A stretch of DNA of 36,395 nt from Candidatus Doudnabacteria bacterium RIFCSPHIGHO2_12_FULL_48_16 (GTDB lineage: Bacteria; Patescibacteriota; Doudnabacteria; UBA920; O2-02-FULL-48-8): NCBI GenBank assembly GCA_001780035.1, contig MFEY01000007.1, positions 395,146 to 431,540 of the forward strand. The letters run 5' to 3'. The notes below the pieces were generated by a model. That model was not told the DNA's origin. It searched no databases and saw only the letters and a list, made by a program, of their open reading frames with translations. This document shows positions 3,362 to 36,395 of the stretch, one piece after another. Each line of letters opens with the position of its first letter. The stretch's first letter is position 1. Both the position numbers and the translations under genes were made by a program.

Positions 3362-4111
3362 ATGAAACAAGTCTTAGGGATAGACGTGGGGGGGACCAAA
3401 GTGGCATCCGGGCTGGTGGCAGAGGGCTGCCAAGTTAGTGATTTTCGGATCGAATCCACATCCCAAGCTGATTTAGTCGGCCAGCTAGGCAAGTTGATCG
3501 GTTCCTACCAGGGCTTTGAGGGGATCGGTTTGGGCTTGCCGGGCCAGGTATTGGCCGATGGCCGCGTGACCAAGTTGCCGAATATTGAAAGTTTTGGCGA
3601 AACTTCTCTGAGACAGGCGCTGGAAGATCAGTTCCACCTGCCGGTTCATGTTATGAATGACGCCAAAGCCTTCGCATTGGCCGAAGCTACCTTTGGGGCC
3701 GGGCAGGGTTACCGAACCGTGGTCGGGCTGATTTTGGGCACCGGTACCGGCGCCGGCCTGGTCATCGACAAGCAGCTGCATCTGGGCAAAGATGGCATTG
3801 CCGGGGAATTCGACCATGTTATGTGGCTGGACGGGAAATTATTTCGGGACCAGGTCAAATTGCAAAAACCCTTCAACCGGATTGAAGAAGCGTGCCAATA
3901 TTTAAGAACAATTTTAAGCCTGGTTGTGCTGGGCTATAATCCTGATATTATTGTTTTGGGTGGCGGCTGGAGCAATATGCCCGGCCTGCAGGCCCAAGCG
4001 CAAGAATTTTTGACCAATGTTGGCGGCTACCAGAATCAGACTCCGGTGGTTATGCATCAGCTGGATCATCCCGGCATCATCGGCGCGGCCCTGCCGCTAC
4101 TCCGACGCTAG
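3362..4111 (+). CDS. ROK-family sugar kinase-like protein
   Basis: GIDVGGTKVASGLV, GLGLPGQV, NDAKAFALAEATFGAGQGY, ILGTGTGAGLVID, PDIIVLGGGWS; the usual CxCGxxGC zinc motif is absent. Confidence 0.85.
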   Translation: MKQVLGIDVGGTKVASGLVAEGCQVSDFRIESTSQADLVGQLGKLIGSYQGFEGIGLGLPGQVLADGRVTKLPNIESFGETSLRQALEDQFHLPVHVMNDAKAFALAEATFGAGQGYRTVVGLILGTGTGAGLVIDKQLHLGKDGIAGEFDHVMWLDGKLFRDQVKLQKPFNRIEEACQYLRTILSLVVLGYNPDIIVLGGGWSNMPGLQAQAQEFLTNVGGYQNQTPVVMHQLDHPGIIGAALPLLRR

Positions 4112-4140
4112 CGGTCGGAGCCCCGACTGAAACGTCGGGG
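4100..4140. repeat. Two adjacent palindromes, CTCCGAC..GTCGGAG and CCCCGAC..GTCGGGG
   Basis: 4100-4106/4114-4120 and 4121-4127/4134-4140 are perfect 7-bp arms; the ROK stop codon (4109-4111) lies in the first loop. Confidence 0.8.
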
Positions 4141-4212
4141 TTGAAAAACCAAGCAACCGAGAATATAATATTGCGATGGGGCCTGTAGCTCAGCGGTAGA
4201 GCAGATGTCTTA

Positions 4213-4348
4213 CCCGCCTGCCACGCCGTGTCAATTTCATGGGCCTGTAGCTCAGTTGGTCAGAGCAAGTGTCTTATACACACTGGGTCGAAGGTTCGAG
4301 TCCTTCCAGGCCCACCATGAAAACTATTCAATTGGCATGGCGGGCAGG
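4213..4348. repeat. Imperfect inverted repeat bounding the tRNA insert
   Basis: CCCGCCTGCCACGCC (from 4213) pairs with GGCATGGCGGGCAGG (to 4348) with two mismatches. Confidence 0.75.
4241..4317 (+). tRNA. tRNA-Ile(UAU), complete, located inside the insert of the interrupted tRNA
   Basis: Full cloverleaf: GGGCCTG/CAGGCCC, GCTC/GAGC, AGTGT-CTTATAC-ACACT, GAAGG-TTCGAGT-CCTTC, encoded CCA; anticodon TAT at 4275-4277. Confidence 0.9.
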
Positions 4349-4407
4349 TACACATCGGGTCCTAGGTTCGAATCCTAGCAGGCCCACCAAATATAATTTT
4401 ATGAATA

Positions 4408-4425
4408 AAGAGCCGAAAGGCTTTT
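4408..4425 (+). terminator. Intrinsic terminator after tRNA locus
   Basis: AGCC-GAAA-GGCT followed by TTTTTTGTTTT. Confidence 0.6.
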
Positions 4426-4527
4426 TTGTTTTGTCACAGGCGCCACTTTATGCTATTTTACTATGAACACTCGAGTAGTGTTTTGAACAGTAAAAAAGAG
4501 GATACATCCCTTCCACACGAGGTGCGC

Positions 4528-8910: not shown

Positions 8911-9777
8911 ATGAAAAAAGTCCGAAAAGCTATAATCCCCGCGGCTGGTTTTGGCACCCGATTTTTACCCGCCACGAAAGCCCAACCTAAAGAAATGCTG
9001 CCGATTGTCGACAAGCCGGTGATTCAGTATGTCGTGGAACAAGCAGTCGCGGCCGGAATCGAGCAAATTATTATTGTAACCGGCTGGCATAAACGTGCGA
9101 TTGAAGATCATTTCGATCGGCATTTTGAATTGGAAGCGCATTTGGAAAAAGGAGGCAAAACTGTCGAGCTGGCTGAAATTCGCAAAATTTCCGAACTGGC
9201 AGATTTTGTGTATGTGAGGCAAAAGGAGCCATTGGGAAACGGCCACGCTGTGCTAATGGCTAAAGATGTGATTGGTGATGAGCCGTTTGTGGTGATGTGG
9301 GGCGATGAATTTTTTTATGGCCAACCTCCGGCGATCAAGCAGCTGATCGAAGCTTACGAACAATATAACAGTCCGGTGATTGCCGGCGTTCGGGTCGCAG
9401 AACAGGATGTCAGCCGATACGGCATCGCGGATGTGACTTTGGTTAAGGATAATGTTTATAAAATCAACCGAATCGTAGAAAAGCCGGAGGTGGGCCAGGC
9501 CCCGTCCAATTTAGCCACCCATGGCAACTATCTTTTAACGCCAGATATTTTTGAAATTTTAGAAACGATGCCGGCGAGCCGCGGTGAAATTTGGTTATCC
9601 GGAGCTATTGATCGCTTGATTCAAAAACGAGACGTCTATACGGTGGAACTGAAAAACAATATATATTATGATTGCGGCAGTAAGCTGAATTATTTAAAAG
9701 CCGTGGTAGATTTCGGCTTACAGCATGACGATTTACGCGCTAAGTTTGCTGAATATTTGAGAAACCTGAAAGTTTAA
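8911..9777 (+). CDS. galU: UTP-glucose-1-phosphate uridylyltransferase
   Basis: KAIIPAAGFGTRFLPATKAQPKEMLPIVDKPVIQYVVEQAV; IVEKPE; GNYLLTPDIFEIL. Confidence 0.95.
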   Translation: MKKVRKAIIPAAGFGTRFLPATKAQPKEMLPIVDKPVIQYVVEQAVAAGIEQIIIVTGWHKRAIEDHFDRHFELEAHLEKGGKTVELAEIRKISELADFVYVRQKEPLGNGHAVLMAKDVIGDEPFVVMWGDEFFYGQPPAIKQLIEAYEQYNSPVIAGVRVAEQDVSRYGIADVTLVKDNVYKINRIVEKPEVGQAPSNLATHGNYLLTPDIFEILETMPASRGEIWLSGAIDRLIQKRDVYTVELKNNIYYDCGSKLNYLKAVVDFGLQHDDLRAKFAEYLRNLKV

Positions 9778-36095: not shown

Positions 36096-36317
36096 CAAGT
36101 AAACTAATTTGTAACTAGTTTATTGAGAATAAGACTTCGTCAATATACTTTGATACTTTCCGTCCCGCCGTTGGCGGGACACAGGTTTTGCAAATGACCT
36201 GAACTAAAAAATATTTGCGCCAGCAATAGACACAGACTGTCGCGGACAGAAAAACGGACTAACGCGGAATTTGTTTTCCGAATTAGTCCGCGTAAAGTCT
36301 GTCACAGTCGAGTGTTA

Positions 36318-36395
<78 letters not shown>

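Follow-up and report, generated by a model that had tools for sequence, protein, structure and literature searches.

A tRNA-Ile(UAU) gene nested in the anticodon loop of its cognate suggests in-place tRNA gene replacement in Doudnabacteria

We asked why a bacterial tRNA gene should be split in its anticodon loop by a hairpin that itself carries a complete tRNA gene of the same specificity. The evolution of tRNA genes is usually attributed to mutation, duplication, transfer and loss. The arrangement lies in a stretch of 36,395 nucleotides from Candidatus Doudnabacteria bacterium RIFCSPHIGHO2_12_FULL_48_16, hereafter the window, which ends at the contig end with the start of a 16S rRNA gene (36316-36395, Rfam). 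Its genome (G000) comprises 925 kb in 9 contigs, with 46 tRNAs in our inventory. Direct reading of 4179-4389 reveals a tRNA-Ile(UAU) gene in two perfect halves with a 136-nt hairpin insert between them, an arrangement that we call a nest. A preliminary description of this DNA had reported the outer halves and an intact inner tRNA-Ile(UAU), and direct reading, ARAGORN and Rfam all bear this out. The features of the locus are as follows.

3362..4111, + strand: ROK-family gene (Pfam PF00480, 124 bits), the upstream marker of the orthologous locus
4141..4169, + strand: sigma-70-like promoter TTGAAA-17-TATAAT upstream of the outer 5' half, 11/12 consensus positions
4179..4212, + strand: outer tRNA-Ile(UAU) 5' half (acceptor GGGCCTG, D-arm, anticodon-stem strand GATGT, CTTA)
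4213-4348, + strand: insert, 136 nt (direct reading)
4213..4227, + strand: left hairpin arm CCCGCCTGCCACGCC (direct reading, joined-flank analysis)
4228..4240, + strand: left spacer (direct reading)
4241..4317, + strand: inner intact tRNA-Ile(UAU) (ARAGORN; Rfam tRNA, 74.3 bits)
4318..4333, + strand: right spacer (direct reading)
4334..4348, + strand: right hairpin arm GGCATGGCGGGCAGG (direct reading, joined-flank analysis)
4349..4389, + strand: outer tRNA-Ile(UAU) 3' half (TAC, ACATC, variable GGGTC, T-arm, CAGGCCC, ACCA)
4407..4426, + strand: terminator-like hairpin 3' of the nest (1 found, 0.5 expected by chance)

Every stem of the outer tRNA is paired in the window (acceptor 7/7, D 4/4, anticodon stem 5/5, T 5/5), the T-arm reading CTAGG TTCGAAT CCTAG, and the joined flanks give a tRNA-Ile(UAU) in ARAGORN with the loop CTTA^TAC. 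The arms CCCGCCTGCCACGCC and GGCATGGCGGGCAGG pair except for two C.A mismatches and one T.G wobble, and the 214-nt nest folds 5.2 sd below dinucleotide shuffles. The nest is presumably transcribed, and the promoter at 4141..4169 probably drives the inner tRNA too.

Comparison with related genomes (G002, G004, G005 and G008-G011) places the window's nest among other states of the same locus. The same nest is present in G002, a family member of G000, and in record MFER01000011.1 of Candidatus Doudnabacteria. The locus from lspA/ROK to the downstream genes is common to G000, G004, G005 and G008 to G011, as far as the compared DNA reaches, and the ROK orthologue stands directly upstream of tRNA-Ile(UAU) in G004, G008 and G011. 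Behind its orthologous ROK gene, G004 encodes an uninterrupted tRNA-Ile(UAU), an empty site, with TATAAT retained upstream. This gene matches the window's outer halves at 28/28 positions of the 5' interior and 38/41 of the 3' half, against 56/69 for the inner tRNA. It has exactly the loop implied by the junction CTTA^...^TAC, as the preliminary description had proposed; the alternative raised there, a junction shifted by one nucleotide to give UAC (Val), is unsupported, and we reject it for the outer tRNA since the empty site reads UAU. In G005 the inner tRNA is the same as the window's at 77/77 positions, with an unrecognisable outer 5' half and a broken 3' half. G008 and G011 hold other types of tRNA-Ile(UAU) together with a 3' relic of the old gene ending GCGCGCACCA, and no such relic was seen at the tRNA-Ile(UAU) locus of G009 or G010. 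Aligned in this way, the orthologous loci form a series that runs from an intact gene (G004) through a fresh nest (window) and decayed halves (G005) to a 3' relic only (G008, G011).

A tree of the flanking genes, built without one discordant gene, groups G000, G004 and G008 (support 1.0). As the newcomers in G000 and G008 differ, this small clade implies at least two replacements. Protein identity over 83 proteins is 67% between G000 and G004, versus 60% between G000 and G005. The gene at window 8911-9777 is discordant and places G000 with G005 (77%, compared with 57% to G004), a sign that recombination may have occurred close to the tRNA locus.

The window's nest is one of several in its genome. 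Scanning all 46 tRNA genes of G000 for complementary flanking arms and cognate halves identified four more.

G000 C6:8985: Ile-GAU nest, decayed or interrupted cognate outer tRNA
G000 C6:9574: Ala-UGC nest, decayed or interrupted cognate outer tRNA
G000 C7:363358: Cys-GCA nest, decayed or interrupted cognate outer tRNA
G000 C7:270393: Leu-CAG nest, decayed or interrupted cognate outer tRNA

At least 5 of the 46 tRNA genes in this one 0.9-Mb genome are therefore affected, and one-sided relics adjoin the Pro-CGG, Gln-UUG and His tRNA genes. The Ala and Leu nests have common arms, CCCCGCACTAA.../...TTAGTGCGGGG, found nowhere else in G000. For Cys, G004 again supplies an uninterrupted gene, which matches the outer halves in G000 at 30/30 and 39/41 positions.

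Beyond these relatives, we collected 51 distinct hairpin-borne tRNAs, mostly from Patescibacteria and with inner tRNAs of ten amino acids, from one pattern scan over 85,462 species genomes and two smaller samples. The large scan, which demanded an outer T-arm, returned 41 stretches, largely from Patescibacteria and in a few cases from Bacteroidota and Ignavibacteriales. The smaller samples, which overlap and made no such demand, returned 8 hits in 50 genomes and 14 in 384, and a reversed-pattern control gave no hits in either. All 17 places from the samples that left the outer gene free lie in or beside tRNA halves or relics; 15 occupy the anticodon loop, and the other 2 are D-loop cases in tRNA-Leu. 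Because the counts derive from one arm sequence and the Ala and Leu nests in G000 carry other arms, they are lower bounds. Four pattern hits in viral contigs included no clear nest.

The outer gene usually matches its guest. The amino acid of the inner tRNA is the best match for outer 3' halves in 37/41 strong cases and for outer 5' halves in 28/31, where 14% would be expected. At 26/49 loci a tRNA results when the flanks are joined, usually one with the same isoacceptor identity. Intact junctions are mostly clean and show no duplicated target bases; bases are missing from a few (L157, L191). One core arm is found repeatedly in different phyla, and for each isoacceptor the insertion site is constant across distant phyla: 35^36 in Ile, Arg, Gly and Thr, 34^35 in Trp and Glu, and 37^38 in Val. 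A rule placing the insertion immediately 5' of the loop's last pyrimidine holds for most loop types and fails for Glu and for the window's CTTATAC, and we do not propose it. A general preference of palindromes for hairpin loops was likewise set aside as weak (4/25, with 5.7% expected).

The anatomy, recurrence, cognate match, preferred site, clean junctions, empty sites and decay stages observed here would best be explained, with a probability of roughly 0.6, by a hairpin-bounded cognate tRNA that enters the loop of a resident tRNA gene and takes over its role while the old gene decays. The unit would consist of a left arm, a complete tRNA and a right arm, about 100-180 nt in all, with arms that may be recognised by an enzyme, and it would enter a resident gene of the same amino-acid specificity at the anticodon loop. 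Insertion would break the resident, and the carried tRNA, using the resident's promoter, would replace it and presumably function alone. We reasoned that such an event would be viable only if the carried tRNA were cognate, and would then be irreversible, so that cognate nests would accumulate and other insertions be lost. This ratchet, an argument from selection, would account for the cognate match without a guide, as well as for the decay series and the presence of several nests per genome. The outer halves would decay, often gaining further palindromes, and end as a 3' or 5' relic; the window, its outer halves still perfect, would represent a recent replacement.

The tRNA inventory indicates what is at stake at this locus. 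No annotated tRNA of G000 other than the inner tRNA-Ile(UAU) reads AUA; the genome has only two CAU tRNAs and a weak match to TilS (19.7 bits, against a cut-off of 93.6), so loss of the inner tRNA should be lethal. Among 31 outer tRNAs that were parsed (a few parses being imperfect), about half have every stem paired, and the rest are broken, with mismatches, lost 5' halves, palindromes in the D or T loop, or changed anticodons. Where the insert is kept, the two exons still pair in the window and have lost complementarity in G005 and roughly half of the other nests. Mutated halves in orthologues were what the preliminary description had named as evidence against a working intron, and that reading is disfavoured; of the alternatives raised there, an inserted palindromic element that inactivated the outer tRNA is the favoured one.

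One aspect of the window fits this reading poorly. Both strands of its outer acceptor have changed, in a matched way, from the ancestral GCGCGCG, and relaxed decay would not predict such a change, or outer halves that remain perfect, unless gene conversion were involved. No other observation hints as strongly as the matched change at a possible constraint on the outer tRNA, and for this reason we retain splicing as a rival. Both tRNAs would then be functional: RNase P and 3' processing would free the inner one, and an undescribed activity would cut the arm helix and join the outer halves. Joining gives exact, fully paired tRNAs in roughly half of the parsed cases, those of the window and G002 among them, which would suit such an activity, as would acceptor stems that differ between inner and outer tRNA in 21/23 nests with both still paired. 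We nevertheless consider it unlikely, as nests persist with clearly broken outer genes (G005, G010, lost 5' halves, D- and T-loop palindromes), outer anticodons have changed in L165 and L175, and the cognate match of inner and outer goes unexplained. Rfam searches of the window and of 4100-4460 gave only tRNA and weak sub-threshold matches, in agreement with the earlier remark that no group I or II core was visible, and we reject such introns. The splicing endonuclease EndA (PF01974) and the ligase RtcB (PF01139) were not found in 11 genomes in which controls were positive, and we reject archaeal-type splicing machinery on that basis. By inspection, the window junctions lack a bulge-helix-bulge, there being no pair of 3-nt bulges; instead, an internal loop of 4 and 3 nt leads into an arm helix with single mismatches.

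A further rival, which we judge slightly less probable than splicing, dispenses with a mobile unit: a resident or transferred cognate would be copied into its own loop by local duplication or illegitimate recombination, for instance through template switching at palindromes, and gene conversion would follow. Inner and outer bodies are identical or nearly so in G002, L181, L192 and the Cys and Ala nests of G000, and the layering of nests L188 and L191 requires local recombination. Many nests, the window's included, nevertheless pair clearly different cognate lineages; the same arms flank different tRNAs (Ala, Leu) in G000; and both the core arm and the loop site per isoacceptor hold across phyla. 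Even where the bodies are alike, the acceptor stems differ and are compensated. Over 23 nests, acceptor identity between inner and outer is 60% (56% between unrelated cognates) and anticodon-stem identity is 69% (47% between unrelated cognates). Selection against cross-pairing of nested halves, combined with gene conversion of the bodies, may explain the acceptor differences; the window shows the opposite pattern, its bodies differing and its acceptors identical. The idea that the nests are assembly or binning artefacts, or chance palindromes between tandem tRNAs, is hardly credible. Most examples do come from metagenome-assembled genomes, but the architecture repeats in numerous assemblies that are unrelated to one another, some of them from named isolates (Aestuariivivens, L170 and L188), making misassembly unlikely, and locus synteny is conserved in seven related genomes. 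Recurrence with zero reversed-pattern hits, together with the cognate match, excludes chance.

If cognate tRNAs do replace residents in place, a means of insertion is needed, and we found no transposase or integrase tied to the nest arms. The insert ends have no direct repeats (attL/attR), the joined flanks being an exact tRNA with no duplicated bases. The Y1 transposase domain PF01797 occurs in 27/50 genomes of the class and was not found in G000, G002 or G005. The exact window arm pair occurs several times as a dispersed palindrome in G003, G029 and G035 and never as a dispersed plain palindrome in G000, G002 or G005. We therefore reject RAYT mobilisation as the sole cause. For one arm pair, a plain palindrome without a tRNA inside a tRNA gene, a conceivable intermediate, was found in 0/384 genomes.

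Several known systems resemble the nests in part. Group I introns occur in bacterial tRNA anticodon loops, and the nests share with them a clean insertion there without target duplication; however, the nests lack an Rfam ribozyme core, their insert is mostly tRNA, and their outer halves decay in relatives. Integrative elements that attach at tRNA genes encode an integrase and, through direct repeats, rebuild part of the gene they enter. Like them, nests are directed at tRNA genes and a working tRNA remains afterwards, but what nests bring is a whole second tRNA, with neither direct repeats nor a gene. In archaeal tRNA introns and the split tRNAs of Nanoarchaeum, the halves are separated at the anticodon loop and have GC-rich complementary arms. 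Nests show the same parting of halves with flanking GC-rich complementary arms, but have no bulge-helix-bulge by inspection and no EndA or RtcB that we could find, and they hold a cognate tRNA between the halves (archaeal introns and split tRNAs are reviewed in PMC4033280). Among bacterial palindromic mini-elements are REP/RAYT (PMC3733652), and Rickettsia palindromic elements are short imperfect palindromes that can sit inside genes (PMC3767692). Both resemble the nest arms in being short and imperfect, and both are dispersed, as arms similar to those of the nest are in some relatives; as far as these accounts describe them, neither carries tRNAs or occupies cognate tRNA genes, and REP/RAYT further differ in their Y1 transposase, not found in G000.

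Our search of the open-access literature returned no account of bacterial tRNA-in-tRNA nests, which is not proof of absence. Judged by sequence, the arrangement looks like a recurrent, undescribed form of in-place tRNA gene replacement, in which essential single-copy genes appear to have been swapped, repeatedly and in many phyla, by a cognate gene landing inside. More specifically, and only tentatively, Patescibacteria might have an undescribed homing of tRNA genes to cognate loops, or an undescribed splicing free of EndA and RtcB that yields two cognate tRNAs. The nests point to an insertion activity that prefers tRNA loops, and relatives can be compared stage by stage, which opens the replacement of an essential RNA gene to direct study. 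They also indicate that tRNA annotation in Patescibacteria misses layered relics.

Some layouts are more elaborate. L188 (Aestuariivivens sediminis) is a four-layer tRNA-Arg(CCU) nest with a D-loop insertion, D-loop Arg-CCU nesting is also present in the likewise cultivable A. insulae, and L191, also multi-layered, has two extra tRNA-Ala(CGC) 5' halves. The C4:6960 region of G005 contains an outer tRNA-Trp relic with a tRNA-less palindrome at CTC^CAAA, and the inner tRNA-Trp lies on a second hairpin further 3'.

Other repeated sequences also adjoin tRNA genes. A leader of about 100 nt, GAGTCGCAG...GAGAACAATTTTTT...CTGCGACGA, immediately precedes several tRNAs and other genes (G004 C1:193592-193694 and about 15 similar places); Rfam named only tRNAs in the G004 leader regions. 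A different element of about 110-120 nt, with the core GGGCAG...CTGCCC, lies 3' of several G004 tRNAs. Sites of this element are as follows.

G004 C1:193374-193496
G004 C1:580100-580221
G004 C1:659253-659358
G004 C1:559904-560013
G004 C1:177180-177256
G000 C4:135164-135260

Its left end is the reverse complement of the adjoining tRNA's T-arm, and its right side repeats the tRNA's 3' end as far as CCA. One copy that lies apart from tRNAs shows direct repeats of about 20 bp.
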